From Gelatoporia subvermispora B (Eukaryota; Basidiomycota; Agaricomycetes; Polyporales; Gelatoporiaceae), in the NCBI GenBank assembly GCA_000320605.2, contig KB445798.1:1364131-1428130 (forward strand): a DNA stretch of 64,000 bases. The letters run 5' to 3'. Position numbers and translations under genes: made by a program. Of the stretch, positions 5,401 through 28,371 are shown in pieces (position 1 is the stretch's first letter; each line of letters begins with the position of its first letter). The notes under the pieces were generated by a model. The model ran no database searches. It was not told the origin of the DNA and saw only the letters and a program-made list of their open reading frames with translations.

Positions 5401-6391
5401 CTAATCGAAGCGAATGATTATGAGGTTAAAGCAGATTCCAGTCATTTGTACAAGCTACGCAAGGAGCGATCAGTGTTATGTTGGAAAATACACTGGAGAG
5501 GTTGCTTACGACGTTCGCCATGATGTAGTCGGCATTGCATTTCGAGATAGTAGTGAAAAGAGTCAGCACTGCGGTCGCGGAGTAGAGAGCCCCGGATTCT
5601 ATGATAATTCGAATAACATAGTGTAGCCTGTCATGACCTGCGATGTATTGGCGAACGTCGCAACTGACAGTGCAGATACGATACACGATGAGAGCTTCCA
5701 GAATTATTGTATCAGCAACAAGCATTGAAGTATGATGAACATACAGGTTGCGATGATGTTCAGTGCTACAGTTAGCGTATACGCAGCTCCGATGAAGGGC
5801 GTCAGGGACTGAGCGTTTATGCCATCGACGTTGTTCGTCGTTGCAGATCTCGCAATGAGCTCCAGACTGGCACCGAGACCTGCGAACCATGAGACTACGG
5901 GAACAATAATTGCTGTCCAGCGACGCTCCCATACAATCCAGCATCGGTATATCTGAGGAGCGTTGTATGAGTCGGAACTGAACGCGAGCTGGACCCTGTT
6001 GCGCACCAGAATGTCATCTCCAATAAGTGGTTGAATAGCCTTGTCGCTGTTTTGAATAATATTGCTTATTAGACTCGAAAGTCGGTTCAACCCCGATGTA
6101 CGATACATACCTTGAGCACATTCATCCAATACGCAACGTTGAGGAAAAGAGAGACATTATCCGCCGTCCACACCTTGATATTCAATACGACGTCTAGGGA
6201 CGCATCGAGCATTCCAATGATACCCATGGCCAGCGTAACAGCGACAAGTAACCTTTTCGTCGATTTCCATGCACTGGGTTCTTCCCCAGTTGCAAGTACA
6301 TATAATTCCCGAGCGTAACAAGGTCAATTCCCAGGAAGATGTTCGTGAAGTAAAGTGTCAGGATGCGCGCCTTGATAACAGAGATACCCAT
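5401..6391 (-). pseudogene. Seven-helix fungal membrane protein with one frameshift
   Basis: Minus-strand exons: 6111-6391, 6007-6039, 5745-5952, 5510-5694, 5401-5454. The protein belongs to the large Agaricomycete family of seven-transmembrane proteins of unknown function. Typical signatures are IYRCWIVWERRW after the third helix, VIRIIIESGALYSATAV before the sixth and MTGICFNLIIIRFD at the end. The splice sites are good and keep frame, but exon 1 (281 bases) needs one extra base near 6285. Before that point the frame reads LGNYMYLQLG; after it the family-like reading EPSAWKSTKRLLVAVT is in another frame. With one base added the product would be about 253 residues. The gene is therefore either freshly disabled or carries an assembly error. 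Substrate and role are unknown. Confidence 0.7.
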
Positions 6392-7336: not shown

Positions 7337-7344
7337 GCCGCCCG
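7337..7344. repeat. Left target-site duplication of the large hAT element
   Basis: GCCGCCCG occurs immediately outside the left terminal repeat and again, identical, immediately outside the right terminal repeat at 25512-25519. Eight-base duplications are the hallmark of hAT transposition. Confidence 0.9.
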
Positions 7345-7462
7345 TAGGGTTGGGTAGAAAACCCCCATGTATTTTACATCAGTGTAAAATACATGTATTA
7401 TACATGTATTATACCTATATTATACATCGGTTGCCAGGAGGCAGGTATATAATGTAAATAAT
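7345..7462. repeat. Left terminal inverted repeat and subterminal motifs
   Basis: The outer 12 bases are the inverted repeat. Behind it, 7369-7392 is a palindrome with 9-base arms (GTATTTTAC and GTAAAATAC), followed by three TATTATAC-like steps and ATGTAAATAAT at 7452-7462. Such clustered subterminal repeats are where hAT transposases bind. The spacing to the inner motif is about 107 bases here but 39 at the right end. Confidence 0.75.
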
Positions 7463-7763
7463 CCTGGCGGTGACGACAAACGTGGCCCAAGCGCCTGAGG
7501 ATGACGAGTGGTGGCTGCAAAGTATCCGGCATCCGTGAGCGGTGGCCGTCGGGTGCCGTATCATCTTAATGTGCATATCGCCTTCAGCCAGTGACATACA
7601 CTTCATATGTGGCTTGCACCATCATGAGTGTGGCCAGGGTTTCCTAGTAGTGAATATAAAGACGGTTCTTTGGCTTGCCCAACTTCGCCTGAGCACCTAT
7701 CGACATCAGCTCACAAAACTAGCCAACTACTTGCTTCGTTCTTGGACACCCTCTCACAACATC

Positions 7764-10700
7764 ATGCAACCTCAGTTAGTCGGATTCAAAGCACAGGACT
7801 GGATTGGCTGTGGAAAGGACTTCAAGACAGCTCCGGATTTTGTTAGAGAAGCATTCAATGCACAGCTCTTGATCCCGCAACCTCTTGAAGCTATCCTTCT
7901 GCCAGGTTCCTCCGCTTCCATACGGACGTTGTTGTCCACAAAGCTTCCGACAATACATGATGCTCTCAATCGCTCGACCTCTCTGGCATTACAACAGTTC
8001 TTTTCTCGTGGTGGCCCTCCAGTACCGGCGCCTCTCGATTATCTGCGCACATTACCCATTCCTAGCCAAGAATTAGTAAAGTCATTGATTGATGTGGCCG
8101 GAATGGAGTGGATTGATGGGAAGCAGTCCATCATGTATTCGCACACAGACGTCTCTGAAGAGGTCTTTCTATTATGGGTTCTCACTTTCTGGCAGCGCGT
8201 TCACTTGCTTCAAGGTGATCTGCTCGCGTGGACAGAAGCTGATCAATGGCTGGCACCACGACTATCCGACTCGTTGGAGCTAGGGATAGCCGCTAACAAT
8301 GCTCGCAAACTATTGCTTGTCATCCCGTGGTCAAGTAAATTATCCACTCTCCCAGGAGCCGTCAATATCTATGAGCTCTCGACATTCTTCTCTCGTGACT
8401 GGCTGGAGTGCAGCCACATTAATCTGATTCTCGAACTCATCAAGCAAAGGCTTTGCGACAACCATCCCGATGCGCAGAAGCACTATATCGCAAATGTGTA
8501 TTTCTCAGCGATCCTATGTTCATCTTTTGCTACCGCTCCAGATGACAAGAATGTGCCTCCAATCCCATCCTGGATAGACAAGATTGGGCGAAAGTTGGCT
8601 TCTGGAGAACTTCAAACTGCAGCATTTGTCTTCAATCGTCACAATACGCACTGGGTCTCTGTAGTTGTCGATTTCATTCAAGGCCGGATTCTATTTGGCG
8701 ATTCCATGAAAGGCGGCCTCCCTCTAGAGCTCCTTTGATTATTTACCTGGTGGCATCGTCTTTATTCTCCCCCGAAGCGATCCTCTTGGTGTGACTGGAC
8801 GACAGCACCATTGCTATGCACAGAACAGACTGGCGGCGATACATATTCGTGCGGCCTTCTAAGCTCGAATGCAATCGAGCATTACTATACTCCGGACAAC
8901 TGCTCCTTGATACCCATCGGTGATGTTGATCTTGAGCGGCTCAGGATCTTTGACGCTATCTGGGCAGCGCAGTCAAAGAATCAGGTATGCATGTCTTGAT
9001 ATCCTTTCTTCAATTGATACTTACATTGGGCCCGACATAATCATAGACTATCTTCTTGAAGAGGCCCCGGGAACTATCAACCCTTCCGCCCATATTACCA
9101 AAGCGCATGAAGTTGGAAGAATCTCCTCCGGAATCTCAACGCCAAAACTCTGAGGTATTAGCATCAATATCATCCGACGATTAGTGTTGTGCCGGGCCCG
9201 ACTTGGCTCGAAAGCCCGGGCTTGGGCTCGGCTTAGGGCGGCCCAGGGCTCTCAAAATCATGAGCTGGGCCCGCTGGGGAGGGCTCGGGCCTGGCCCGGC
9301 TCAGCCGGGCTTTAGCCCAGGCTTTTGGCATGTGGAAGTAACTAAGTAATATAACATTTTTGCTATGCAAAAGCGTTGAACTAACACTTACCGAAATAGA
9401 ATGATCGTTATAGGCATCAAAATATGACAAGGAGTCGCAAGAGAAGGCCTTGAAAGGTACACGAGGATGCAAGTACAACGTGTCACGTGACTTCTGCACG
9501 AGTCCGAGCTCACATCTGTACTTCAGTGAGACCTCGGAGTTGATTCTGAAAGGTTTTTTTACAACCTTCAGTGCTGAAATTTACATATAGGTGTGTCCCA
9601 AATGATTTATTACTGCCCTCTACAATAATTACACAAGTTCCAAAAGCCCAGGGCTTTTGGGCTCGGCTCGGGCTTTCGAAAGTTCAGGCCGGGCCCTGAC
9701 AGTGGGCTTCAAGACGGCTTGGGCTCGGCTCGGCCCGGCTCCACAAGGGCCTGCCCGGCTCGGCTCGGGCTCTAAAGCCCAGCCCGGCACAACACTACCG
9801 ATGATGACCATGTGTCTATCTCGATGCTCTCTCGTGTTGCTAATACCACTCTTGAGGATTGTCAAACTCCATCGGCATCTCAGAAGGGCCGAGCTGGACG
9901 ACCACGGTCTTTGCTGCTAGACGATCTTACCTATTTGGTTCAAGCGGCCAAACCAGGTCACTACGCTCGCTACGGATGTGTTGGTTGCAAGTACGAATTT
10001 TCCGGGCGGGCAACTGGGCGGGTGTTGAAGCACGCAACACGCTGCTTGAAGCTCTCTCCCCAACTCAGGTCTCATGCTTGCAAAGCAAGCAGTGATAGTT
10101 CACCTGGCGCATGTGTCGAGACAATCAAGGCGAAGGTCAATCCCGCACATAATACATCTGCCGTAGCGGTGCATAGCACTTCGGACAATACCGTAGCCAT
10201 TGCGAAGAATACGGAAAGTCAGGACTGGCATGCCTACTTTGCTGATGCCGGGAAATCTACCCTCAAGGCTGCGTTGGATTTAGCAATACTCAAGTTCTTC
10301 AGCTGCAACGGAATTGCACCGAATGCAGCCGACTCCTCGGAGTGGAAGGATATCTGGCGAATTGTTGGAAGATATGAGCCTGTCTCGAGGAGTACAATGC
10401 AAGATGTTCAGATTCCACAGGAGGCAGAGCATGTCCGCTTGAAGCAGACCAAGTATTTGATGACCAAGCAGAATTTAACAATTTCTTTTGACGGGGGCGG
10501 AACTAGACGCCGAGAATCATTCTACTCATGTCATGTTACGACTCCCAAGCGAGAAAGTTATCTCATTGAGGCATTCCCCGGGAACGGATACGCCCATACA
10601 GCTGAGTGGATTTCCAAGCATGTCTTAGAGGTATGTAGTTTCCCAGTTCCGGGGATCTCATCTCATCTAACAACCTGACAGGTCATCAAATCAATTGGTC

Positions 10701-12530
10701 GAACTCGCTTTGCTGGCATCTGTTCGGACAGCACTGGTAACACAAAAAAATGCCGCCAGCGTGTCTGCAATGCTGTCCCTACCATAATCAATTTCCCTGA
10801 CCCTGTGCACCATACTGCATTAGCGATCAAGGATATCTGTCAACTGGAGTACTTCAGTCCCGTTGTGAAGATTACTCGTCGAGTCATCAAGCATCACTCA
10901 CACTCAGACAAAGCGACTCATCAGCTAGACAAAGCACGACCAAAGTTCAATATTACCCACGGCTTGCAGACGATCGGCAAGACACGCTTTGCTACCATTA
11001 TCCATGCTGCAGTAGCATTGTGCAATTGTCTACTGGCTTTACGCTATGTTCAAGCGGAGCATGGATTGAGTATTGAGGTATGTGAAAGACCTTCTGAGCA
11101 CGCTCATATAAGCCAAACCCCGATATACAGGACTGTTCTCCCCAGCTCTTCATGGCCGGGAAGTCCGCGAGCCTCAACTTTGAGCGAGACCTGAACCAGC
11201 TCATCAGTATAGGTTTACCGTTTGCAAAAGCTATCATGTGCCTCGAATCAAGCCATTCGACAGCCGCAGATGTGTACATATTCTGGTGTGCAATCGCCGC
11301 ATGTCTCAAGAGGGTTCTAAGCGACAATGAATCAGGCATTCCGAGTAGCGTCAAGGGTCAAATTCGTGGAATTTTCAATGCTAGATGGCGCGAGATATTC
11401 GAGGAGGGACCTAACAGAGCGCACTTGTCTGCGTTCTTTCTGCATCCCGGTCAGTATCTCTCGTGATGAAGCACAACTCCATGCTCATAGACTTCTCCAG
11501 GGTACACCGGTGCAGCCATCTTCAAGGAACCAAATGCAGTCGCTTTCAATATCAAAGTACCCGCACGCAAGGACAAACACACTGGTCAAGAGATCAAACA
11601 TCGGCGTGTCTATCAGCAAGTTGGCGAGTGTCTCACGACAATGCTCGCAGCTGAGGTCGAGCATGGCAAGAACATAAAGCTCAATGTCCCTTCTACTGCC
11701 CGAAAGCTACTGAAGGATCGCTTCCAGCACCAATTCCGTGCATATGCCACCGGTCATTATCCCTTTTCGACGCCATTGAGAGATGACCAAACAGCTCTCG
11801 AGTGGTGGAAGGAGCTTGAGAATGTTCCACAGGCCGAAGTACTAGCCGTAAGTCTTGCAAATTTGCAATAACGCCCTGTATGACCGTTATGTCCTCACGC
11901 TGAGACCACGGATGACCCAGGCATTGGCAATCAAGCTGTTCTCGATCATGCCAAACTCCATGCCTGAGGAGAGAACCGTCTCAAACTTTACCTGGACGAA
12001 TAGCGCACTCCGAAACCGTCAGCATCTCTCAACAATAGTGTCCCATACTCAAATCAGGCAGTTTTATCGATCCAAGGTGAGAACTCATGACATGAGGGGG
12101 ATGATAGTCTCATTGATCAATTACAACATATTACATACACCAGGCCCGACTCCAGACAATGTCAATACCAACAGTCCGTTTCTATGAGATGGACAGCTTG
12201 CTACGAGATATGACGACGGCAATCGGACCCAAGGATGCCGAGAAAGCGGTGAAGTTCTGCGCCCTGGACCAGGATGATAGCGAGGATGATGTGGATGCTC
12301 GTCCGGGGGAATCTTGGCTGGACGACCTGACGGAGAGCCTCACGACCGACGCCGCCACAGAGTTCGCGATGGAGCATGACGTCGAGTTAGGCCAGGAGGA
12401 GCTCATCTCCTTGCTGGCGAGCGACCATGCTATAGAGATGGTGGCGCAACGGGAGTCACAGCACCAGGAGCCCGTATTAGAAGAGGGGACCAACGAGGGA
12501 GTGTCCTGGGTGTTTGACGCGGATATCTAG
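7764..12530 (+). pseudogene. Ulp1-like protease / BED finger / hAT transposase, interrupted
   Basis: Exons as read: 7764-8984, 9047-9181, [MITE 9182-9797], 9798 or 9806-10630, 10682-11077, 11131-11449, 11501-11847, 11921-12076, 12144-12530. The first part is a C48 (Ulp1/SUMO-protease type) domain: the His is in FNRHNTHWVSVVV, the Asp in ILFGDSMKG and the Cys in GGDTYSCGLLSSNA. It is followed by a BED-like finger (C-x2-C...H-x4-C in CVGCKYEF...KHATRCLKL) and a DUF659/hAT transposase with acidic residues in ISFDGGG and ICSDSTGN. The hAT dimerisation segment reads PEERTVSNFTWTNSALRNRQ, and the tail is acidic. Two lesions are visible: an in-frame TGA at 8736-8738, between the protease Asp and Cys, and a 616-base MITE. 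Removing the MITE with one target duplication leaves the frame open, so the gene was one unit before insertion. It is the likely mobiliser of the element, now defective. Confidence 0.82.
9174..9805. mobile_element. Non-autonomous hAT-type MITE inside the transposase gene
   Basis: The element proper is 9182-9797 (616 bases). Perfect 16-base inverted ends TAGTGTTGTGCCGGGC occupy 9182-9197 and 9782-9797. They are flanked by CCGACGAT (9174-9181) and CCGATGAT (9798-9805), an 8-base duplication with one mismatch. The subterminal 100-150 bases on both sides are strings of GGGCTCGG / GGGCTTT-like units, and the middle is AT-rich without a coding frame. It would have been mobilised in trans by another hAT transposase, since its ends differ from those of the surrounding element. 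Confidence 0.9.
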
Positions 12531-13028
12531 GTCTTCATTCTATTCTGTCGCGGTTTTTTGCATTTTAAACGCATTTTTTACATTCCCGCTGCATCTGCAG
12601 TGGGTCTTGCAAGTAATCGACCTCAACGACTTTTGGCGGTAGATCCGCCGATTAACTTTACCTCTGCTTGGTCACGCTTGCATTTGTTTGTACTGCCCGT
12701 CCTCGGCAGGCTCCCAACACATCAGTTTGTATCCGTCCCGCCCACCCTTCTCTGGATCCGCAGTGAGTCCGCTGGTTAAGAACGTGGGATCATCCCCGTA
12801 TATGCCTTCCTCCCAGGCTCTCTCTGTCTTGCCGCTCAACACATCTTATCCATGTTGCTGCTTGGGATCACCCAAGGCGAAACTGCTCTTTTGCCCCTGT
12901 GCGTAGCTATGCGGTGATCTTCCCCTCTCAAACTGACGTCCCTTCGTCGCAGACCACCGGATATTCTTTCCGAATTGGTCGTCTGGTTAGATATTCCATC
13001 CCTTCTTGCCTTCCGCCACTGCTGTTCA
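12531..13028. other. Spacer between hAT transposase and Helitron-type cassette
   Basis: No gene. It contains T-rich tracts at 12554-12590. If the right part is a nested Helitron, its 5' end should lie here, but I could not identify a decisive terminus. Confidence 0.4.
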
Positions 13029-13871
13029 ATGGCCGACCACGTAGTGTCTCGCGAGCTGAATATCAGGTGCAATCGGTGCCTCTACCCTTACATTGCGTTC
13101 CCCACGCCGTTCCGCGCACTCATGCGTATAAGCGGCGCCATCGTCGTCGGATCTTCCGCTACTCTCTTTTTCGATTCAACTTCGCCGCACACCTCTAGCG
13201 ATTTAGATGTGTGTGTGCCTGCCGGCTTCGCTCAACGCTTCCGCACGTATCTCCAGCGTTGCGAGGGGTATAGTCACCACGCCGATATAGATCCTCTGGA
13301 TGATTACCTTGGCGGGTTAGCCCGCACGGTACGCATGCGCAAGGACAATGTACAGATCGACCTCCTGGAAAGTCGTACCCCCCTCGCTGCCTTTCCCGTT
13401 CCTCATTTCCTCGGCACTCACTTGTTCTCCTGGCTGTCGGCAGACTCCTTCTGCACCGCTTACCCCTCCCTCACTTTTGAGCGGCGCAGCCTGATCACTG
13501 AAAACCGCAATTTAGATGCCTTGCTGGCGAACAATTCTACCAAGCAACTTCTCCGCAAATGCGTACAGCGTGGCATCGACTGCAGATCCCATCTGTCCGA
13601 ATGGACCCATCGACCATGTACGCGCGGTGCTCACTGTCCTCACACCCCGCGCTGGTTCGGCGACCGATGGTGTTTATTGGGTCATTTCGCGGACATTCAG
13701 CAATCCCGGGTCGACTTGGACGCCCGATCTGTTGTCGCCGAGTACACTGCACTGTGGTGGCGTGGAGGACGGCCATGTGGCGGCTTGTGTATCACTCCGC
13801 GTGGGCGGCTTATTCCCATGGATGTTCTCACAGAGTCGACCGATAATCTGCGTCGTGTAGGCCCGTGGTAA
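13029..13871 (+). CDS. Nucleotidyltransferase-fold-like protein in the element
   Basis: A single open frame of 280 residues. Early in it GAIVVGSSATLFF is followed about ten residues later by SSDLDVCVP. This is the GS...DLD pattern of the DNA polymerase beta-type nucleotidyltransferase fold, in which the two aspartates bind metal. A cysteine pair (CNRC) precedes it, and a Cys/His cluster (CTRGAHCPHTPRWFGDRWC) follows near residue 200. I chose the ATG at 13029 because the upstream in-frame extension looks non-coding. Similar proteins are common in Agaricomycete genomes; their substrate is not known. Its place directly upstream of the Rep/helicase cassette, on the same strand, suggests cargo of the element rather than a host gene. 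A third catalytic acidic residue may be in NVQIDLLES. Confidence in the fold is moderate. Confidence 0.6.
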   Translation: MADHVVSRELNIRCNRCLYPYIAFPTPFRALMRISGAIVVGSSATLFFDSTSPHTSSDLDVCVPAGFAQRFRTYLQRCEGYSHHADIDPLDDYLGGLARTVRMRKDNVQIDLLESRTPLAAFPVPHFLGTHLFSWLSADSFCTAYPSLTFERRSLITENRNLDALLANNSTKQLLRKCVQRGIDCRSHLSEWTHRPCTRGAHCPHTPRWFGDRWCLLGHFADIQQSRVDLDARSVVAEYTALWWRGGRPCGGLCITPRGRLIPMDVLTESTDNLRRVGPW

Positions 13872-13896
13872 TTGGGCTTCGTACTAGCGGTCCAAA

Positions 13897-14746
13897 ATGA
13901 AATCATACATTATCATCTCGGTGCAGCTGTGTGTTACGGTCAGCCTCTCCGTTTCGATGTCTTGTCCTTACATGTACTACGGTTTCGACGCGGATAGTGA
14001 GTACGAGATTTCTCTCGTAGGGGACGGGAACGTACCCCTCCGTGTGCTCAGGTAAGTGTGGCTGGGTTGTGTTGCTCACTGTGAGTTCAACTTTACCGCC
14101 ACAGACTGCTCGCCGAGACCCTCGAAACAACCAACACCGCACAAGCCACATACGCTCTGGCTGCCTTGCCTTCTGATTATGAGTGGCGGAGCTGCCCCGA
14201 ACGTGGTTCCGTCCAACGTCGGACGGATACCGCCGGAAATGATTTAACCGTTCTGCTGTCCGGGACGATACATGAACTGGCCCGTGACGATAACGGTGTC
14301 GTGTGTATCGACCTGTGTCTTCTTCGAGAGAGGGATATTATGGCCACGCAGGTGGAGGGATTACTGCCTCTCGGTACAGTGTCATTCTGCCGTTGTTTGA
14401 ATTCCCTTTAATTCTTTTCAGATACTGTCTGCGCTGCGGTCGTGCCCATGACCGCTGGTGCGGCCGTAGCGGTGCGACACTTATTATACTGACCTCGTTA
14501 GGGGGCTGACGTTTTGGCCCGTAGGACTCTGACCTCGTCAAGGATGGGTATCATGGAGCCGGTGTGGACGGCGGTGCGCTCAACATCTACATGTTGAGTA
14601 TCGGCGATGTCGTTACCCTCAATTGCACCTTGGAACGATCTCGTCGCCACCCGGACGACCTATGGGACATTGACTTGATTTGCGGTTGTGTCTATCTAAT
14701 ACACGCCGTTCCTTCTTTCGAAGAGGATCTCGGCGAGGCCACGTAA
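13897..14746 (+). CDS. Unrecognised 231-residue protein, element cargo
   Basis: Exons 13897-14051, 14105-14373, 14422-14471, 14525-14746 join in frame with consensus GT-AG sites to 231 residues; I do not recognise the family. The start follows the nucleotidyltransferase-like gene by only 25 bases. The body is rich in valine, leucine and aspartate and looks mostly beta-stranded (for example DLTVLLSGTIHELA, NIYMLSIGDVVTLNC), which would suit a small OB-like or other beta-barrel fold, but no motif proves it. It ends shortly before the Rep/helicase gene, on the same strand. A role in DNA handling by the element is a guess from context only. Confidence 0.6.
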
Positions 14747-15038
14747 TGGTTCTTACTATACGCATTGTATGGCCCCCGCCTGACGTACTCCTTTATGTTC
14801 ACCACCCGGGGTGAAAAATTCTTCACCCTTAATTCTATCCCGGTTTGACAGGTTTTGTTTGGATCCGCACCTCTCCGGAACTTCGCTCCAAAAAAAAAAC
14901 ACGTGTTTTGAAAAATCACGTGTTATTTTGTGCAGAGTTGCCGTCCAGTGCTTGCTTGCGCTCCTGAATACTCGCCGGTCGTGGTTGCATCTTGACGACT
15001 TTACGCTCCCCGCTACACTGTTGCACGATTTGAACAGC
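14747..15038. other. Spacer before the Rep/helicase gene, with two hairpins
   Basis: Contains the inverted repeat GGGTGAA...TTCACCC at about 14810-14828 and two copies of CACGTG in inverted arrangement at about 14900-14925. The second could act as an E-box-like site or a hairpin. This probably includes the promoter of the following gene; an additional upstream coding exon is possible, since the frame is open from 14811. Confidence 0.35.
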
Positions 15039-18000
15039 ATGAGCTTCTTGATTCAAGGATCGTTTGCTTCACATCCTGCCTCCATTCTTATTGATCCTGA
15101 CACTGCCACCTCCTTGGTTTCGCTGGTGTTCGCGAACCGACACCGAATTCCACAGACTGTATTGCCTTCGAGTGGCTGCGCTCAGTCGAGCTCCTGTGGA
15201 CCCCTCATTGCATATACGAATGGCGGATTCTACACATCAACATTCCCCTTGCCGGTGGCATTTTCGACGCGATCTGATATCGTCTTAGGCCTGGATTGGT
15301 TGGGCTCCTCAGGGGTGCTTATCCGGGATGGGGCATTGCAAGAGCCAGACAGCGATGCTGTCTGTACGCCTCAGGCTTTTGCGGTTTGGCACCGACTTGA
15401 TAGTACGTATTTCTTCATCCACCTCCACCTCCGTACTCACTCTCCGTCGCAGTTTCCCCCCGGCCTTCAGGCTCTCGGACTGTTGATGTTCATTCCAGAC
15501 CGGCTTCTCACGGAGGCCCGTCTCGATTTCTCTCGCCTCGACGCGAAGATCTTGCTAGTGCTGATGGCTGTGGTCCACACGCTGAGCACACAAAAATCAT
15601 TCTTGAGGGTGGCTGTGGATCCCCCTTGTCCGATGTTCTGCCAGGCAGTGAAGCGGACTGTGGTCGCTTCCTTGCCGCGTTCCACGCATTTTTCCCGCCG
15701 GCTCGCTCGATGCACGTAGCGGCTTGGCTTTTGCAATCGCACGGCTTAGATGTCTCGCTGTGGCCTATTGGTAAAGCACGATCAGTCTTCGCGAGACACG
15801 TGTTGGAGGGGGGCTGTTTCTCCTCCACCTCTCCAGGTTGTCGGGAAATGGTTCCACCTCATATAGCACTTGAAGAATACATTGCGTCCGCACGTCGCAG
15901 TGTCTACAAGTTCTGCGAAACCTCGTCGACGGATAAACCTGTAATGATGGCACTGGTCTCCGGTTTGGGACTTGAGGTCCGCGACAGCGCCAGGAATTTT
16001 CGTCATACTGTGTTAAAAGCGCTTCGGCCGCTATGTCTTCCGGACACCGAGAATACATTTGAGCAGACTGTTAACAATTTGGACCGGTTGTCTCGGGCAG
16101 ACCTACGTGCTCTTGCCCAGTCTCACGACATCAGTGCGCGGACGAGTGCTCGATCTGAAGAGTTGAAAAATCTTATTCTTCAACATCTGACGAGCAGAGC
16201 TTGCCATTTGTCAACCTCCAGCTCATGTCGGATAGTGGGTGCCACCTCTGACGAGTTTACCGGTCAGCTGGATTTACAAATAAGCCTGTTGACACGCTTG
16301 AGGCCACGAGCGACCTCTAAAGTGCTGCGCCGCTTGTTGAATTCACATAGCGTCAAGTTCAATCAAAACGACGGTGTCGGTTGCCTCCGTCGCAAACTTA
16401 AGGCATTGATTACCAAATTGAAGAAGGGCAAGCATACATGGTCTGCCAGAAGACAGCGCAAGGGGCAACAACTGCTGGACGCACGTGAAAGAGTGGCTCG
16501 AGAGTGGCCTCAGCTTATCTCGGGTGATTTGAAAGCACGTTTGCAGGCGGCATTCCGACGTGAAACAAGCAAAGAGAATTTGCAGTCCCTGATATGCGCT
16601 TGTTGCGCTGCTTCCACTCTCGTGTCGAAAATGCGCGTCGTTAAACTGGACACTCTGCCGTTAGACATTCTCCATGTTCCCTTCGTGCTCGGCCGAGGAC
16701 AACCTCCTCCATACTTCGATAGTGGTCCTCTCAAAGATGTCCTCCTGCATCCTGATGGCATTATTGGCAGCACAAACTCTCTCCACAGCGAGGCGCGATT
16801 ATGTGCTGCCTGCTATCACCCTCTGCAACGTAATCGTTTGCCGGCATTGGCTTTAGCTAATGGTCTATACCTCGGACCTGTACCTGATGAGTTGCAGGAA
16901 TTGACTCCGATTGAAGAGGCTCTGATCGCTCAGTGTCGTGCAAAAAGCTGGATCGTACAGCTGCGTGAAGATGGGCGTGAAAACGCATTGCCGAACGCGC
17001 AGCGCGGGCTCAAAGGACATGTTATCATTCATCCGCAGCGACCCGAGCCATTGTTAGATGTTCTGCCGCCGTCTATGACTGATATACTGACATCGATTTG
17101 CGTTGTATTTGTGGGCAGTGTGATGCCATCTCGAGAGTGGGTCTTGTCAAAAGCTAAGCCGTTGGCTGTTCGGCGTGAAAAGGTCCATGCGGCCTTGCTG
17201 TGGCTCAAACAAAATAATCCGCTTTATCGCGGTGTGCGCATCGCTGAGGAACATTTGCAGGCTCTCCCCGAAGATGGTGTGCTTCCTTATCATGTTGAAC
17301 GAGTCGATCCGTCTGCTGCCCAGTCCTCTCTGACTGCACGTTACGACGTCAATGAGACTCTTGAGGCGCCGCCTGACGCCATGCGACAAGGGTTGTCTGA
17401 TGAAATGTTATCTTCTGTAGTTATCACCGATGTCGACGGTCGGTCCCCTGCTAACGAACTGCGGGCTGCGGCTATCCGGCATGTCAAACAAAAAAGGGGG
17501 GGGTTTGTACTCATGCCTCACGAGCCAACACCAGTCAACGAGTTCTTTGATCCGACTTTGTTGCCTTCGGTATACCCAACTCTTTTCCCTTATGGCGCGG
17601 GGGGGCTGGAGGACCGAGCTCGCGTATCCGCCCTGTCGTTCAAGCGACACTGTAAGCACCTGTTTAGTTTGAGTGATCGCAGGTTTCAACAACATTATTC
17701 TTTTATGTTCACGGTATTTAACATTCTGCAGCGTCGTACAGTTCTACTAAAGTCTAGTTTGCGAGTTAAAAAGGATTCCTTCCGTCACGTCGCTGAGGAC
17801 TTCGCAAGTATTTCGGCCGAGACTGTGTCTCGCATGTGTGAACGATTGAACAACTCCGAGCAGTTGGATGCTACGACCGACGAAGAGCGTAAGGTTCTTA
17901 AGCTCATGAGAGAGGTTAAGCTCGTTACTCGTGATGTTCCCGGCTCCTCCTCGGCGCGCATTGCAATGCGTAACGAGATACGTGGCCTCATGCTGCATCA

Positions 18001-21000
18001 CGGAATGCCGAGCTTCTATATTACAATAAACCCTGCAGATGTCTATAATCCTCTTGTTAAGTTTCTCGCCAGGGCGGACATCGATATCGACGATTTGTTG
18101 CCTGAACAGGTACCTAATTATTGGGACCAGTCAATTCTCATCGCCCGCAATCCAGCAGTGGCCGCGCGTTTTTTTAACATATACATGCACGCGTTCATCC
18201 GCACTTTACTCGCTTTCGATCCGAAACAGCAGGATGTCGAAGGGGGAATTCTGGGGGTTGTTAAATCCTACTACGGTTGCGTCGAGGCTCAAGGACGTGG
18301 ATCGCTCCATTGTCACATGGTCGTGTGGGTGGAGGGAGGATTAAATCCAGATGAGCTCCGTGAGCGTGTACTTGCAGACCACAGCGAAGAGTTTAAGCGG
18401 CGTTTACTTGATTTTCTCGATGACACTATCTCTAACGCCATTCCTCCAGCACCGGATGGCTACACGGACTCGGACCAGCGCCTGCCTCATCCATGTTCCA
18501 CCCGGGGCGTTCGCATGGAAGACCTCGCCACTCCTGCCACAGCCAACTTACGCGCCACAGATTTGCACCGTGTCGTATCCGCGTGTCAGAAACACGTCCA
18601 TTCGAGTACTTGTTATAAATATTGGAAAGGCAAAGGTCACGCGAAGGAATGTAGATTTGACCTTGAGGAGGGAAACGTGTGCTTGGAGAGCTCTATAGAT
18701 CCGGAGACCGGACAGATATGCCTCCGGTGTATGGATGGCTTAATTAATAACTTCAACGAAACTGTCATTCAGGCGATGAGGTGTAACATGGATATCAAAT
18801 TCATGGGCAATGGTCAAGACGCTCGTGCTGTGCTCATGTACATCACCGACTACATCACAAAATCTCCTCTGAAAGCTCATGTGTCCTACGCGGTGCTCGA
18901 GGTTGCCTTGAATCGATTGGCTCGTTTCGATACAGGCTTGAATGACATTGCACAGAGGGCAAGACGCACACTGCAACGGGCGGCGTTTGCGATGGTGGCG
19001 CAACAAGAACTGAGTGCCCAACAGGTGGCGTCTTACTTGATGGACTTCGAGGACCATTTCACAAGTCACACCTTCAATAATCTGTATTGGCCCGGCTTTG
19101 AGCGTTATCTCGATGCGCTAGACCCCAGTCCTGAATGCGCCTACCGCGGGGCATCTCGAACATCGGGAGATGGGGGAGCAGTCTCCACACCAGAAAATGG
19201 CGACATGCCAGCCGGCACAGGCGACAAAGACGATACCTTTCTCGAAGGAATCGCGGACACTGTCGAAAATGGTGACCTAGATGAGTACGACGAGCAGTTG
19301 AATAATATGAACACTGTAGATGAAGTTAGAGTGACTGCTAATCGGTCTGGTCAATTAATTCTGCTCGCAAACCAGTTATATGACTACGTGTATCGTGCGC
19401 CTGAGCTTGCAAACTTGTCGTTGTGGGATTTCGTGGCCAGAACAAAGAAGGAGAGTAAACGTAGCTCTCGGGAAGGAGAAGCCGAAGGCGACATCCAGGA
19501 GTCACTCGAGATTTCGGATGACGCAGGACTGGATGACCTTGAGGAGGATGGAAATGATGATGGATGTTCATGTGGTCCTGCCCTCGATCACTGCATATGC
19601 GGATCTGGAGATGTGGAGCATCTACTGGTCGATGGAGGTGATGACCCTGCACCAGATAAAGAGCAATTGCGTGGGATGACCGTATCAGAGTTATTGGCAT
19701 CTCTGTCACAACAACGTCCAACGTTTGGATTTACCCATCAACACCTTGAACATAACCGGAAGCACCTGAAGATTTTACATCCCGCTCGGGCGTTCGTGCC
19801 TGTGCCTATCGGACCGGCTCTACCGAGACGCGATCGCGAGGCTGAGTATCCTCGCTATTGTAGGCTCATGTTACTGTTTTTTAAGCCATGGCGGGTGGCC
19901 TCTGACTTACGTGAAAGACCTCAGACGTGGACCGACGCGTTCAAGAACATGACTGCAACTCTGCCCGAGCGCTTTGTACGCATCATGAATAATATACATA
20001 TTATGCACGAGTCTCAGGATTGTCGCGACAAACATCTGCGGCAGGGCCGTCACCGACGGCGTTTCGCTGAGCCTGTCGGTCAGGGTTTCGAAGGCGTGTC
20101 CATGGATGATGAGGATACCGCAGATTGCCCTTGCGTAGAGGACGTGTTAGACCACTTGCAGGCTATTGACAATTCCCGCTCTGCGTACCAGAATCGTATG
20201 GATGCGAGCGTGCTGGAGTGTATGACTCTGGCTGATCAGCACGCATTGTTTACAGAATTCACAGCACCCGAACGTCCAAGTGAACCGGATGACTCTCTGC
20301 TCGTGATAGATCCTGCTGTGGATAACGTTGAAGACACATGGAGATCTGCTTACGCGGAACGTCGCGCGGCCACACGCTCACGCTTAACTGCAAGTTCGCC
20401 TCAAGCTTCGGGTCCTGCCTCTGCTGCTAGTCGCCCTGGCCTCGTGGCACAGCACATGGGCGTGTTGCATGATGCCAGTGCATTACCTTTGCACAGTGTG
20501 GCTGTGATACCCGTCCAGGTGTCATCGGGCGTGCGGTCCGCACGCGATGTCGTTGCTGAGTACGCTATCAAATGGACGTTAAATTGCGAACAGACTCGTG
20601 CATTCGCAATAATTGTGAAACATGCAATGGACCCCCGCAGTTTGGATCCTGATGATGCCTTGCGGATGTATATCGGCGGCCAGGGAGGTACCGGAAAATC
20701 GACAGTCATTAACGCGTTACGAGAGTTTTTTAGCGCTCGTGGAGAAAGTAGGCATCTGCGACTTTGTGCTTACACCGGAGTGGCCGCACGCAATGTGGGT
20801 GGAGTGACTCTCCACGCAGCTATGTGCTTCGAACCGAATAAAAGGAGTCAGAGTGAACGGAGTACACGGTCTCGAGAGGCCTTAACCGCTATGTGGGGGG
20901 GGTAGACTACCTATTCATCGATGAGATGTCTATGGTGGGGTGTAAAATGTTGGCTCAAATTAGTGAAGCATTGGCAACCGCAAAGGGTAACTCAGCGGAT

Positions 21001-22326
21001 TTTGGTGGAATGAGTGTAATCTTCGCAGGGGACTTCGCTCAACTGGCCCCTATCAGCGACCGTGGACTCCACTCGTGGGTAGCCGGATCATCGGCGGTGG
21101 CTACTAAATTGCCTGGCCAGGACATCGTGATGGGTAAGGTACTGTGGTTATCAGTTGACACGGTTGTCATGCTTTGGAGGCAAATGCGCCAACAAGGTGA
21201 TGAGAACGGTCCTTTTGTGGAACTACTGTCTCGATTACGAGAAGGCAGGTGCACCGATGCGGACTACAACTTATTGAACTCACGTGTGGTTACAAACCTG
21301 CCGGCTCGATGGCAAACTTCAACCTGGGCAGACGCTCCGGCTCTAGTGGCAAACAATCCTATTAAAGATGCATTGAATGAGAAGGCTGTTCGGAATTTCG
21401 CCGTGCAAACTGGCCGTGAATTCCATTGGTATTATTCGCAGGACTCAATGGGTGGTCACGTGATAACAGAAAGTACTTTGCGAGAACGATTGTGGAACAT
21501 GCATTCTGGGCAGGGCGGTCAACGCTTGGGTAAGATTCCTATGGTAATAGGTATGCGTATCTTGGTGACTCAAAACTTTGACGTCGACGGAGGTATTGTG
21601 AACGGCAGTATGGGAGTACTGAAAAGAATTAGATACACCACTGACAGTGAGGGCAGAAGGTATGCTCTGTCATGCATTGTGCGTCTGGATGACGCCGATG
21701 ACGACTGCGAGGTCATGCAGGGTATGGACCCGTGCGAAGTCCCTGTGCTGTGTGACGAAGTCCAATTCACGGCGAAACATCCTTACTCAGGAGCTGGCCA
21801 ATCATTCAAGCGGTTACAATTACCTATTTTACCCGCATATGCGCTGACCGTTCATAAAGCCCAAGGACGAACATTCTCCAATGTGTTTGCTGACGTGCAA
21901 GGCTGCTCAGGTACAGATCAGCCATATGTAATGCTATCTCGCGTGAAGTCCCTCGCAGGTTTAGTCATATTGAGGCCTTTCAGATGGGCAAAGATAAGCT
22001 GCCGATTCTCTCAGGACACTCGTCGTGAATTGGACCGTTTGGATGTTTTGGCTGTAAGGACAACTGCAGTGCATGGAGTACCAGACGATGCACGTGCCGC
22101 TCAGGAGCGCCTGGAGCGTGAAAGACAACCTCCGTTGACGGCGAACGAGTTTGCAGGAAAAGGGAGACACGCGTTGGCCGGGGTAGGAATGGACAAAAAT
22201 GTATTGCTAGACCTCTTACAGACAAAAACGTTTGCCGAAATACACGCGCTACAGAACCCCCGCAAACGAAATCTAGACAAGGCCAACAGAGCCGAAGAGC
22301 CGCGGCGTCGCAGGCGAATAGGTTAG
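15039..22326 (+). CDS. Helitron-type Rep/PIF1 helicase with retropepsin-like N-terminus
   Basis: Exon 1 (15039, possibly earlier, to 15402) splices in frame to 15453-22326. Domain order: a retropepsin-like segment (ILIDPDTATSLVS, then DIVLGLDWLG); a SAP-like DNA-binding motif near 16080-16190 (LSRADLRALAQSHDIS); a cysteine-bearing linker of the DUF6570 type at about 16780-17110; the Helitron Rep domain, with HUH residues in GSLHCHMVVW (about 18300-18330) and the two tyrosines of MYITDYITKSPL (about 18835-18870); and a PIF1/RecD-like helicase with Walker A GGQGGTGKST (about 20675-20705), Walker B FIDEMSM and the late motif ALTVHKAQGRTF. This would nick, transfer and unwind single strands in rolling-circle transposition. 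The reading frame shifts once, in an eight-G run at 20895-20902 inside the helicase; one G more or two fewer would restore it. The fused protein would be about 2,400 residues. The stop overlaps that of the convergent gene. Confidence 0.85.
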
Positions 22327-23545
22327 GAAGTTGCGTCTTCTGCAATGCGCATCTCATTCATGGCGTGTGGGAGATTGGTGGCACTCTGAGAAGAGCTGGT
22401 GATGTGCATAGGAACATCATCTGTGGGTCCTTGAAATGCGACCTGGGGTACCATGACTTGATCCTCGTCATTGGGTGGGAGTCCGACAACAGCTTCTGTC
22501 GGAGTATCCAGCTGGTCTATGTTGACAATGTCCGGAAGGATGACCTGCTGGGGTGTAAGTGCGGGTACGCGTGACTGTGTGACGACTTACTTGGACGTCC
22601 TGGTATCTCATTAAACGCAGGACATCGTGCACGGCGAAGTGAGACACGGAGCGGCTGAACTTCTTATTGAAGGAGTACTGGACATTCACTGTGAAGGTGA
22701 CGTCCACGAAATCACCGCGCCGCAGAGCAGTCGGCTGGAGGGCGATCACGGCTCCGGTGGAAGTGAGAGCTTTGACCCCAATGCGGTGTGCGACTACCCA
22801 TTTGCGACCGTTGGCGTATCTGCGGGCACGGCCCGAGGGATCGTCAAGAGATGTTAACTGAATTCCGGGGGGGCGGTGTACGGGAGTGATCTGGGATGGA
22901 AATGAGCTTCGTGTTACACAAGGACATCGATACTAACCCGACTAAACACCGGGCGGGCGAAGGTGAGTTCGCCTTGCGTGACTTCTTCGGCCAGAGACTG
23001 CTCCCCTAATGAGTCGCTCACAAAGCTCTGTAGTTCGCGGACAGCGTGCCACTGCACGGCAAATGCCTCCTGTGCTCGGTCGTTCCCTCCTATCAATGTA
23101 ATGTGCTGCGTGGCTCTCGGAAGGTGGTGTTCAGACCTAGTCAAATTGTTTATAGTCACCGAGATGCTAGGAACAAGGAACAGCATACCTGTTCCAATCA
23201 CCTAAAGTCTTCACATTGAAAGAGCCCAGGAACCCTTGGACGTGAACTTTGACTTGGACGACGGCCCGACCAGGCGGAGGGCTCAAGTACGTGAGCATGT
23301 AATGGCGGCGAGGACCAGTGTGATGGTCCCCCTCGTCCGGGGCCTGCAACGTAGCCCACGATGATAACTGGTCGTACTCCGATGGCATGACGCGCCACGG
23401 GTCCTTCAATAACTGTTCGACAGCAACACCGCGCCGGGGGAGTGGGGCAGGCCACAGCTCGCGAACGAATTGTCCATCTTTGCCTGTGCTAGGTCAGAGC
23501 GATGGGAATGGGTCGAGTAACATACTCACCCCGAATAAACGACAT
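22323..23545 (-). CDS. Unrecognised 344-residue protein, element cargo
   Basis: Minus-strand exons 23530-23545, 23189-23483, 22938-23136, 22591-22890, 22323-22547 join in frame with consensus splice sites to 344 residues starting MSFIRG. I do not recognise the family. The protein has a beta-rich centre (for example GDFVDVTFTVNVQYSFNKK) between basic and aromatic stretches (ARRYANGRKWVVAHR), and an acidic, disordered C-terminus. The clean five-exon structure argues that it is a maintained gene rather than chance. Its stop codon overlaps that of the convergent Rep/helicase gene by four bases (22323-22326). The basic beta-rich core would fit a single-strand DNA- or replication-associated accessory, but that is inference from position only. 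Confidence 0.65.
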
Positions 23546-24006
23546 GCCTCTGGTGGGACAGGAAATGTGAGTTTACGTTGTGAACTGTTGCGTGGTTTAG
23601 TGGTTAGACTTAAGGTCGCTGTCGGCCTCAAGGCTGACCAGCTCCGTCAGGCGTCACACGGTCTCTGACCAGGATCGTTGTCAGCCGGCTGTGCAACACT
23701 GCGGAAGCCGGAAATGGGTGAACATGGCGGCGCGGATGCGGGAGGGCGACTATCGGCCCACCTGGAAGTTGGAGATCGAACCGGGGATTCGTCTGCTGGC
23801 GTCGAAAAGGATATGTCAGTTTGAATCGTGACGGGACCACCCAATTTGGGCATCCGCGGCGGCAGACCTGACGGTCGGTCAAAATGTGAATTTTCACATG
23901 CGTGCAGAGATCGACATAAAAGCTCACCTTTGGTCTGCGGGTCAAGGCACTTTCCTTCTGTTCCCATACACTGCTGAAATCCTGCCACTGTTTGTCGATC
24001 ACGAGG
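23546..24006. other. Divergent promoter region in the cassette
   Basis: Lies between the minus-strand 344-residue gene and the plus-strand gene starting at 24007. Long minus frames overlap it but have no motif. It probably holds both promoters. Confidence 0.4.
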
Positions 24007-25265
24007 ATGCCACCTAAACGCAAGTCCACCAAGAAGTCGAAGTGAGTAATCCCGAGTGTTAGCTTTGCGATGTGTGCTGACATTGCGCCACAGGGTGACT
24101 AAAGGGGGGCCCCGTACCGTCACGCCGACTGATGACAGAGTTGTGCCTATGCTGTCTGGCGTGAGTGCCGCAAACGAACCCCAGGACGAAGAGGACGCAC
24201 CATCAGCGACTGTTGTTCCTACAAGTCCTGCTGGTTGGTCGAAGTCACCGTCGCCTATGCCAGTCGCTGTCACTGCAGAGAGGTACGTGGGTTAGACACC
24301 GGAATGGATTGTGGGCTAAGTCCAGCAGGCGCAGGGAGAAAAGCCGCGCTGGTGCGGGTGAACCTGCTCATGGGTGTGTGCGCTCCTTCTCGGGTTCGAT
24401 GTAGTCTGCTAATCTGTCCGACCGAGCGTAGTGTATCCGTGACGCTTCAAGCCCTGTCTGCAAAGCGAAAGGAGGACGAACGAGTTGGCAGCGTTCCTGA
24501 TCCTTACGCTATGCCGGTGAGGTTCGTCTTTGCCTCTGCATTAGAAAAGTGAGTATCCTTGATGGCGCTCTTGCGGGATATTCACATACAGATTAGGCGT
24601 CTCTTCAACATGGTTGCTCATGTGGACGCACACCGCCATGTGTACGCAGTGTCGAAGCTGCCCGTGGAATGTTGATGGGGCAAATGGTCCCGCGACGGGA
24701 ACGATATCAGCCTCAAGCTGACGGGCGACGTCGATCGTGCGATCCCTGTGGCGATATGGATGTTAGCGCAACTCAAGCGATGGAAGTTACGAAACACCCC
24801 CGAGAAGGTTTCCCTCGGTTTCGTACCTCTACGTCAAGTTGACCGCGCCGCCGCTGAAGGTCATTTGGAGCGACTGGCTACAGGTTAGTTGTTATGTCGC
24901 CGGTCGAAGGGGTGTGACCTGACATTTTTTGGGTCGTAGCTCCTCCGGAAGAAGATAAGTCACCGCTGGTGTGGGCTTCTAGGTGGCTTCGCGAGAAGAA
25001 AGGCGGACCGCGCGTCGAATTCGAGAGTGTCTATGACCTGAGACAACCCGTCGCTGAGGGTGAGGAGCTGGAGGAGTACTACGTCGACAGCTTAGCCGAG
25101 GACGACATTGTGCTCGTGGAAGCTCAGGTCGCCCGTTGGTTTGTTGGGCTGAAGTTGTGGAGGACCAGATACAATCTCGAGGCACTGTACTGGATTCATC
25201 GCCCGTTGGAGAACGGAGATGCGTCGCCGGCTAAAAAGGCTAGGATGAGTACGATCGCGATTTAG
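24007..25265 (+). CDS. Unrecognised lysine-rich protein, element cargo, model incomplete
   Basis: The start is well supported: MPPKRKSTKKSK at 24007-24042 splices (GTGAGT ... CACAG) to 24093-24282, reading VTKGGPRTVTPTDDR and a proline/serine/acidic stretch. The last exon is about 24940-25265 (reading APPEEDKSPLVWASRWLREKKGG and ending in AKKARMSTIAI). The middle (about 24320-24900) has good coding frames, such as TERSVSVTLQALSAKRKEDE at 24421-24480, but I could not join all exons in one frame. The product appears basic at the start, acidic in the middle and aromatic near the end. I do not recognise it. It could also be two genes. It is the last gene before the candidate Helitron 3' hairpin. 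Confidence 0.45.
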
Positions 25266-25330
25266 CACCGAATTTGTATGTCTGCAGGGAATCTGGAACG
25301 TATTGAGGTTGCAATGATGCAGCGGGTTTT

Positions 25331-25350
25331 GCCCGAACCATCGGGCGCTA
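25331..25350. other. Candidate Helitron 3' hairpin
   Basis: GCCCGA at 25331-25336 pairs perfectly with TCGGGC at 25341-25346 across an ACCA loop, followed by GCTACGTTA. Helitrons end in a short GC-rich hairpin just before the terminus, and this one lies 65 bases after the last cargo gene and inside the outer hAT end. The usual CTRR end is not seen, so the exact terminus is uncertain. Confidence 0.4.
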
Positions 25351-25366
25351 CGTTATTTTTTACCGT

Positions 25367-25511
25367 GTATTTTACATGACACGTGATATGATTCGGATGT
25401 CCCGTGCCGACAAGTAAAATACATTATATACGCCATGTATATAATAGGTCCGGGGTTGACAATTATTTACATGCAATATCTTACCTCCCGAGAATATTAT
25501 ACCCCACCCTA
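25367..25511. repeat. Right terminal inverted repeat and subterminal motifs
   Basis: GTATTTTAC (25367-25375), its inverse GTAAAATAC (25414-25422), ATTATTTACAT (25462-25472) and the outer 12-base repeat TACCCCACCCTA (25500-25511) mirror the motifs at the left end in inverted order. Confidence 0.75.
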
Positions 25512-25519
25512 GCCGCCCG
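25512..25519. repeat. Right target-site duplication of the large hAT element
   Basis: GCCGCCCG, identical to 7337-7344. Confidence 0.9.
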
Positions 25520-25624: not shown

Positions 25625-28371
25625 ATGGGAATCCATGGACTGACAACCTATCTACGTGAAAACAAACGTGTCCTCTCAAGGACTCTCAATTTCCACTCTT
25701 CGCAGAGCGATTCAGGTGGTATCACTCAGAGAACACCGGTAGTTGTGGACGGTTGGTCGTGAGTCCAGAATCACAGACGGTACAGAGTGACTGCTAATTG
25801 TTATAATTTGCCTGCCACGGCTACAACCTCTGAAGCTTCATCTACGAGCTCCTTGCACGCGCGGACCTGCCCTGGGTGTACGGCGGAGAATACGAGACCT
25901 TTGCCAAGATCCTCGTGCAGACGATCGATGCCTTGATTAGCACAGGTCTGAATCTATACTTTGTCTTCGACGGACCATACCCATCGCTCAAATTTCCCAC
26001 AATCGTCTCTCGCACGACGCAGACGGGTATCCAGGGCGGCCTCCTCTTCTTCCGTACATCGGCCATCGCCCGCTCCACTTCACGCTTTCTCCATGAAACC
26101 GCCTTGCTTCCCCCGTTGGTCTATGATGTCTGCGTGCGATCACTGCTCGAACTCGTATCAGATGGCTCATCAAAATATATCGGCCGCCTCGAGGTTCACT
26201 TCGCCGACGAAGAGGGCGATCCCTTTGCAGTCGCTCTTGCGGGACGTGTCGGTGCATACGTACTAGGACGTGACTCTGACTTTGTCGTCCTGAATGCCGA
26301 GGGGTACAAGGGCTATATACCTCTCGAGGAGATGGTGTGGACGGGGACAGCTGAGCCTTTGTCTCCCGATGGGAGTGTCTACAGCTCCCTGAGCAGAGAC
26401 ATGTACGATGACGAAGACGAGGATGGCTTCCGCCGCGTCCAGAAACCGAAGGCTCGCAGGCGCGCAGAGGTCGATCGGCGTCTGGGCCGCGGACTCATAC
26501 CTCCGGACGACGCCACCAATGCTCTCTCGGATCTCACCCTCACCTGCGAAGTCTATACCCCTGCTATGTTGGCCAACCACCTGGAGCTACCCGTGTCCGT
26601 TCTGCCGCTCCTCGGTGCACTACTGGGGAACGACTACACGGGCGCACCGGATGACACATCCCCAACGGCGTCGCCACATCCTGGCAGCTCTCGGAAGGGG
26701 AAGCTGCAGCATCTTTTCTTCGAGCGCAGGCTCACTCTGCAAGAGCGCATCACACATGTCGCGAGCATACTCCGTTCCATCCTGGCGGAGTCTGTCGCAG
26801 TTGTGGCCCAGACGGCTCGCAAGAGACGCACAAGGCAGATTACGAGCGTCATGGAGCTTATCGACGCCGCGGTGACGGCTCTTCTCATCCGCCCACCAGA
26901 CACTCTTGCGTCAGGCGAGCGTGAGGCGATAGTAGATCGTATTGTGGAGGCGACACTGCAGTATGCGTTGCCGCGGGCTGAAGAATTGGACGATTCTGTA
27001 GATGAGTCATCGATCGGCACAACAGAGGACGGCAGCACGCTGTGGGCTTCGGATGTCTGTGTATTGCATACACCCGAGTCGTGCCCCTTGTTTGCATATC
27101 TTGGTCGACGCGAACTAGCTATTGCCGACCTTGAGACGGGATGCGACGGCCTCGACGACAAGGACGATCCCGAGGCGCACGTGCGGGCTTTGTATGTCGC
27201 GGCTTACCGACGCGGTGTGCTGAACCCTCGAGTCTTGAACGCTCTCAACACTGCATCCAGCTGGCCGCGACTGTTCCTCGAGGATCCGGATAAGGAGAGC
27301 GTTGCACGAAGTATTGGACGGCCTGTCCGGGAATGGGGGTATGCACTGTTAGGAGCAGGCGTGGAACAACAAGTGCCAGAGACGCAGGTGGAGGTGGAAG
27401 AGGTGGTGGCGAGGGAGGACGAGGACGAGGAGGACGAGGACGAGGAGGACGAGGACGAGGAGGACGAGGACGAGCTGATCGACGTCCAAGAGTCCGACGA
27501 TGAGGACCTGCTCGCACCGCTTCGCGGAGCACTACAGCGCCTCGATGTGGGCACGAATGGAGAGCACATACTTCCGCCGGATGCCCTCCCCCATGCCGTA
27601 CCTTCACGGCCCAAAATCATTCTCGAATACGTCCGGCGAGGGACACGACTTGCGGCAGAGGAAGTGATTGTGCCTACATTGTCTGACCTCTTTGACAAGT
27701 TCTCTGTCTCATCTCACGAGCCAACTCGAGCCTCGCTGCCGGTTCAACTAATGTCCGAAGAGGACCGACTGACGTATCTGCTACGTGCACTCGAGTCGGA
27801 CGTCGCGGCAGTCCGAGCGCTGCCGTCGGAAATCCTCATGGCTGTGCTGTCCCTGCGTTGGGTCGTGCGCTCACTGCATGCTCGCGCAAAGGAGAGCGGG
27901 GGCGCGAAAGAACGCATCAAGGAGCGCTGGACAGCAGAGGAGGCAAAAGCCTTCTTGTCAGCATTCTCCGCCCATCCGAACGAGAACAGCCCGGAGGCGC
28001 CGGCTGTGCCCATCGAGGACCGCAACGTGCAGCTCATGGCGCAAATCAGCACTGCGTTCGAGGCAATTGACGGCTTCGCGCAAATCCTGCTCCTCGGCGA
28101 CCGGCTGCCGAACTCGATGTCGCACTTCTCGGGCAGGCGGTTCCATGCGTTCCTGACGGGCGTCCTGCAGGATGTCGGGGATAGCCTACTCCCGAGCGTC
28201 TGGGAGGCGGCTTTATCTGGGCAAGAGAACATGTTTGCACAGGCGAGCAAGGGGAAGAAGAAGGAGCAAAAGGCGTCCGCGCGAGCTGTGCCACCGTCTT
28301 CGAAACGTGGAGGTTCGCGTGCGGGCGCGGCGAAGGGCCTGTACGAGATGCTTGGGGATATGACTATCTAA
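25625..28371 (+). CDS. Asteroid-like XPG/PIN nuclease-fold protein
   Basis: Two exons, 25625-25758 and 25836-28371, give 889 residues. The N-terminus MGIHGLTTYLRENKRVL is the classic XPG/FEN1-family start (MG-x-x-GL), and after the splice the line VVVDGWSFIYELL supplies the first metal-binding Asp. FVFDG, HFADEEGDP and GRDSDFVVLN carry further acidic residues of the PIN-like active site, and GALLGNDYTG is the expected later Asp. This pattern is that of Asteroid-type proteins, whose nuclease activity and targets are not established. A run of repeated Asp/Glu, encoded by a GAGGACGAG tandem repeat, occupies about 27412-27476, and the C-terminus is basic. The gene starts only 113 bases from the right end of the 18-kb element, so that element sits in or near its promoter. 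Confidence 0.85.
27412..27476 (+). repeat. GAGGACGAG coding microsatellite
   Basis: An imperfect repeat of GAGGAC/GAC units encodes a pure Glu/Asp tract in the Asteroid-like protein. The opposite strand reads as a long serine run, which is an artefact of the repeat. Such tracts vary in length between strains. Confidence 0.85.

Follow-up and report, generated by a model that had tools for sequence, protein, structure and literature searches.

A probable Helitron2/Helentron-type element and a miniature element nested within a hAT transposon with a predicted Ulp1-type protease domain in Gelatoporia subvermispora

Several described transposable elements resemble parts of the locus analyzed here; the comparisons below refer to the available portions of the articles cited. 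Helentrons and HINEs (PMC4067079) share with the inner element of this locus subterminal inverted repeats, a 3' palindrome, a TT insertion site, an RGS motif in Rep and short derivatives, and the S in RGS(P/L)HxH is given there as the Helentron form. The Helitron2 element FoHeli of Fusarium oxysporum (PMC5148889) has in common with it a Rep/helicase without endonuclease, non-autonomous relatives, a T beside the insertion and asymmetric inverted repeats, the 3' one located some 20-51 bp from the end, with hairpins in some cases. HELPO1 and HELPO2 of Pleurotus ostreatus (PMC4289320) likewise occur in a basidiomycete host, encode a Rep/helicase and reach up to 13.7 kb, yet they differ from the inner element in their AT site and CTRR ends (CTTG in HELPO2); the same article mentions an earlier in silico report, lacking a structural analysis, of Helitron-like sequences in the species studied here, under its other name Ceriporiopsis subvermispora. 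Regarding composite elements, Teratorn (a fused piggyBac-herpesvirus, PMC5601938) is of the kind imagined by the original prediction made for this locus; it was reported as one mobile unit retaining transposition activity, while the parts described here were found apart.

The window, i.e. the whole stretch of DNA that was analyzed, comprises 64,000 nucleotides of the genome of Gelatoporia subvermispora B (GCA_000320605.2, contig KB445798.1, positions 1,364,131 to 1,428,130). Three independent transposons are almost certainly stacked in it, in an ordinary nesting of known kinds, since relatives of the hAT element and of the rolling-circle element were each found without the other.

The outer hAT element, nested insertions included, covers 18,167 bp (7345..25511, + strand) between 12-bp terminal inverted repeats (7345-7356 and 25500-25511). 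It starts with TAGGGTTGGGTA and finishes with TACCCCACCCTA (inverted match of 11/12), carries mirrored copies of subterminal words at its left and right ends, and is flanked by a duplication of the 8-bp target GCCGCCCG (7337..7344 on the left, 25512..25519 on the right). The inverted ends, the perfect 8-base duplication and the mirrored motifs on which the original prediction was built are thus all present in the sequence. The species' own genome was searched for both ends, and the resulting counts are lower bounds: the left end, with the hAT part as query (40 of 43 candidates scored), was detected in at least 10 places, window counted, and the right end, with the rest of the element as query (31 of 32 candidates scored, the window not among the matches), in at least 8 places. 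At least eight other copies, ranging from 643 to 4,762 bp, carried both ends, a count that leaves out a place on C7 with the left end only and a place on C26 with a partial right end. TAGGG-type terminal inverted repeats were shared by the window and all eight of these copies, each of which (8/8) was bordered by a perfect 8-bp target duplication, all mutually different, so the outer hAT element is not a product of chance. The copy on C6 (4,762 bp, with TGCTAAAC flanking both sides) contained neither the inner element nor the miniature element, and its alignment to the window's hAT part showed 81-83% identity.

The gene of the outer element (7764..12530, + strand; start and stop codons set by eye) is a homologue of CERSUDRAFT_73706 and would encode a Ulp1 protease joined to a DUF659/hAT transposase. 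In the window it is interrupted twice, by a stop codon at 8736-8738, within the Ulp1 part, and by the miniature element; the stop is specific to the window with respect to C6, which reads through at that position. The miniature element (616 bp, 9182..9797, + strand), unmentioned in the original prediction, splits the transposase gene and forms the third transposon layer in the window. Its ends are TAGTGTTGTGCCGGGC, with termini TAGTGTTGTGC, and the flanks CCGACGAT (9174-9181) and CCGATGAT (9798-9805) are alike in 7/8 positions; the own-genome search gave 34 further match rows, of which some represent fragments of a single place.

The transposase gene of the C6 copy was open as a seven-exon model, giving 1,261 aa, and the deposited model CERSUDRAFT_73706 has 1,273 aa, the 12-residue difference falling at the Ulp1/transposase junction. 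DUF659 goes with hAT transposases. Pfam assigned to the C6 protein an N-terminal Peptidase_C48 (Ulp1) domain, DUF659 in the middle (E 1.2e-9, above cut-off) and a C-terminal hAT dimerisation domain (Dimer_Tnp_hAT, E 0.015, below cut-off). Through DUF659, Pfam agrees with the hAT transposase that had been proposed for this locus; the upstream Ulp1-type ORF (from 7764), which the gene model places in one gene with the transposase, had gone unmentioned. The hAT transposase and the N-terminal Ulp1-type protease are likely to be one predicted protein of 1,261-1,273 aa, a mildly new arrangement that adds slightly to the interest of the locus beyond the nesting. DUF659-containing fungal hAT members (P0002-P0007) share with the present element DUF659 and a related transposase, while the latter, with its 8-bp duplication and TAGGG-type inverted repeats, has the predicted N-terminal Ulp1 (C48) fusion in addition. 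A literature search of titles and abstract openings, which is no proof of absence, found no description of a hAT-Ulp1 fusion in the text so covered.

That the Ulp1 and hAT ORFs are instead two distinct genes, fused by gene prediction alone, seems rather unlikely. With the whole Ulp1-hAT protein as query (7,992 candidates scored), seven proteins were found; according to the precomputed Pfam column, the Ulp1 domain was present only in the species' own protein and in none of the remaining six (6/6), which come from other species and covered 44-57% of the query. The Ulp1 part alone, used as query, gave two hits: the window protein itself and a stand-alone Fomitopsis protein of 270 aa. The absence of the domain in the six proteins is consistent with separate genes, as is the fact that the junction rests on a predicted intron, where the two models disagree by 12 residues; against this, the two parts are joined in frame in both models. 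The differences per codon position between the window and C6 followed a similar pattern in the Ulp1 part (0.12/0.10/0.31) and in the transposase part (0.13/0.08/0.37 and 0.10/0.09/0.32), which agrees with a single gene, although the same would be expected for separate genes too.

Beyond the probable fusion, an Ulp1 relative was detected on C39 of the same genome, with 28-29% identity (28% over 422 aligned columns). There, a Ulp1-type ORF lies just upstream of a DDE_1 transposase ORF within a candidate element (L075, C39:55500-63500, about 1805-6056) with 27-bp inverted repeats (26/27) and TA at its borders; these borders are putative, taken from this one copy, and the left end abuts another inverted repeat. 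A further, weak Ulp1 match was found on C13 (24% identity, E 1.9e-6). It is possible, and we propose it only tentatively, that cut-and-paste transposons of this fungus have repeatedly been assisted by Ulp1-type (SUMO/ubiquitin-like) proteases, fused in the hAT element and separate on C39; if so, the protease may target host SUMO signalling or the transposase itself, favouring transposition.

The inner element, a predicted Helitron2/Helentron-type rolling-circle element of 12,772 bp (12584..25355, + strand), lies between T(12583) and T(25356), so that the inner part, originally placed at 13-25.3 kb, is present with a slightly larger extent. Its 5' terminus is TCCCGCTGCATC (the sequence from 12584 being TCCCGCTGCATCTGCAGTGGG) and its 3' terminus is GCTACGTTA (...GTTA), without CTRR. 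The 5' inverted repeat CCCGCTGCATC (12585..12595, + strand) is part of a palindrome (12585-12604), and its counterpart, the 3' subterminal inverted repeat GATGCAGCGGG (25316..25326, - strand), is located 29 nt from the 3' end, followed by a hairpin GCCCGA-ACCA-TCGGGC (25331..25346, + strand) at 9 nt from that end. The insertion site is T|T, within a T-run in the 3' untranslated region of the hAT gene, and the C6 copy reads through the unoccupied site (ACATTTTTTACCG); there are six Ts at the C6 site versus the seven left by the window coordinates, and hence the position of the joint is uncertain by one base, a T.

Searches of the same genome showed that these ends recur. The 5' end was detected in at least 14 further places, 12 of which were examined; the preceding base was T in all of them (12/12), and two (L066 and L068) had a one-base difference from TCCCGC within the first two positions. 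Both ends were found in 4/12 of these copies, with lengths of 354, 448, 448 and 398 bp and a T after the 3' end in every case (4/4), while in the other 8/12 the 3' end was not found within the stretch examined at each. On C8, the 3' end was 96% identical over 104 bp and then followed by T; on C13 it was diverged, and also followed by T. Relatives of the coding part were detected on C8 (92-96% identity, in pieces), C21 (66-70%), C13 (69-73%) and C1 (66-67%); for those on C21 and C1, termini were looked for and not found. Part of what was anticipated for solo copies of the inner cassette does occur elsewhere, as short elements sharing its ends and as incomplete or diverged relatives; a second full-length 12.8-kb copy was not found in the own genome, where the C8 relative is broken up.

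The largest coding block of the inner element is the Rep/helicase ORF (stop to stop, 15404..20905, + strand), to which Pfam assigned DUF6570, Helitron_like_N (1.5e-34) and the start of PIF1, in agreement with the proposed Rep/PIF1 helicase. Its motifs include RGSLHCH near aa 969, YITDY near aa 1146 and GKST near aa 1764, and a PDB sequence search with this ORF gave one weak match, to an AAA ATPase (E 0.0074). PIF1 is spread over two frames, the rest of the helicase being read in the other one (20857..22326, + strand) because the reading frame breaks at eight consecutive Gs (20895-20905, + strand); this run is identical in the C8 relative, which indicates that the break is either inherited or a shared reading error. 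No endonuclease domain was matched by Pfam in the 13 of the inner-element ORFs that were scanned.

Accessory ORFs were found on both sides of this block. For the first (12918..13871, + strand), the sole relative found was a Gelatoporia protein with the UniRef name F-box; a nucleotidyltransferase reading, based on a motif seen by eye, had no Pfam match and is not claimed. The ORF before the Rep/helicase (14784-15719, + strand) contains a stretch IDPDTATS...DIVLGLDWL and had no Pfam match either, so that an aspartic-protease (retropepsin-like) reading of this motif, also made by eye, is not claimed. For the accessory ORFs at 12918, 14085 and 14784, the compared stretches, which covered some relatives only in part, contained no DNA match. 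Downstream, opposite-strand ORFs (22323..23493, - strand) were kept in pieces in the C8 relative (3/3 compared) and in the C21 relative (2/3), and the last ORFs (24676..25265, + strand) were conserved in C21 (24676-24888) or in both C21 and C13 (24918-25265); no Pfam family above cut-off was detected in either group. The predicted structures of two accessory ORFs had mean pLDDT values of 32 (12918-13868, + strand) and 38 (22471-22932, - strand) and were set aside.

In the comparison with C21, differences per codon position were concentrated at third positions in two pieces of the Rep/helicase (0.29/0.19/0.62 and 0.24/0.15/0.64) and in the last accessory ORF (0.22/0.20/0.57), which suggests that both are the element's own genes and under selection. 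The pattern was less even for the opposite-strand ORFs (0.24/0.25/0.69, with 269 of 462 bases aligned, and 0.33/0.29/0.47). With respect to C8, Rep/helicase differences were more even across codon positions (0.07/0.05/0.10 and 0.06/0.03/0.07), so no constraint is visible since the window and C8 copies parted.

Based on its ends, its T|T site and the RGS motif, the inner element is assigned to the Helitron2/Helentron type, the RGSLHCH motif of the window Rep carrying the S of the Helentron form. Since the 13 ORFs scanned contain no match to an endonuclease, a feature that sets it apart from the Helentrons as presented in the available text of PMC4067079, Helitron2-type is the better name. With respect to FoHeli, as far as the text available for PMC5148889 goes, it is longer (12.8 kb), ends in TCCCGCTGCATC...GTTA, has different accessory ORFs and resides in a basidiomycete host. 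A canonical Helitron (Helitron1, with 5' TC, 3' CTRR and an A|T site), like those of Pleurotus, would also start with TC and encode a Rep and a PIF1 helicase, as this element does; nevertheless, its 3' end reads GCTACGTTA instead of CTRR, it sits at T|T, its inverted repeat is asymmetric, and both HELPO families, as described in the accessible part of PMC4289320, combine an AT site with CTRR or CTTG. This reading is thus very unlikely, and was rejected because the 3' end (...GTTA) and the T|T site do not fit. The Helitron-type machinery originally recognized at the locus was retained as a rolling-circle Rep/PIF1 module, with ends and a site of the Helitron2/Helentron kind rather than the canonical one. 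For a basidiomycete family of this predicted type, well-defined termini, an insertion site (T|T) and several short relatives are now available.

The arrangement would be explained by a cut-and-paste hAT element that inserted here, duplicating GCCGCCCG, by a miniature element that landed in the hAT transposase gene, and by a 12.8-kb rolling-circle element that landed between Ts of the T-run in the hAT 3' untranslated region. Each of the two large elements would have used separate ends, namely the 12-bp inverted repeats in the hAT element, and the inverted repeats plus 3' hairpin in the rolling-circle one. We infer these transposition mechanisms from the families of the stacked elements, whose anatomy and separate copies were observed. 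The simpler of the readings proposed initially, a rolling-circle element landing in a hAT copy, is supported by the eight two-ended hAT copies of the own genome, all of them free of the cassette (8/8). Its counterpart, a giant DNA transposon of a new class in which the hAT transposase mobilises the entire 18 kb, rolling-circle module included, as a stable unit, is extremely improbable and was rejected: the outer ends and duplication of the window copy are perfect, and the Ulp1-hAT gene of C6, open under the seven-exon model, could in principle act in trans, but the joint unit was present in no second copy of the own genome (0/8 with both outer ends), the window transposase is broken by the stop at 8736-8738 and by the miniature element, the relatives and ends of the inner element occur away from this hAT, and no positive evidence for the composite was obtained. 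A candidate new class of giant transposon is hereby removed, and the locus illustrates that stacked transposons can mimic one.

Other features were noted in the window. At 25625-28371 (+ strand), ~110 bp beyond the end of the hAT element, a reading frame recognized by eye starts with MGIHGLTTYLRENK and is followed by a long ORF with a weak XPG_I_2 match, below cut-off; the hAT insertion may have an effect on the promoter of this gene. An apparently complete Tc1/mariner-type element (42265-43860, - strand) contains an open ORF of 370 aa (DDE_3, HTH_Tnp_Tc3_2), and its two ends match (CAGTGCCGAGCAAAAGTATTGCAACATCAC) and are each bordered by TA; seven further places at 95-99% identity, some of them partial, were detected, in addition to two shorter or weaker rows. 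A gene for a velvet-domain regulator was also present, at 46203-47240 (- strand).
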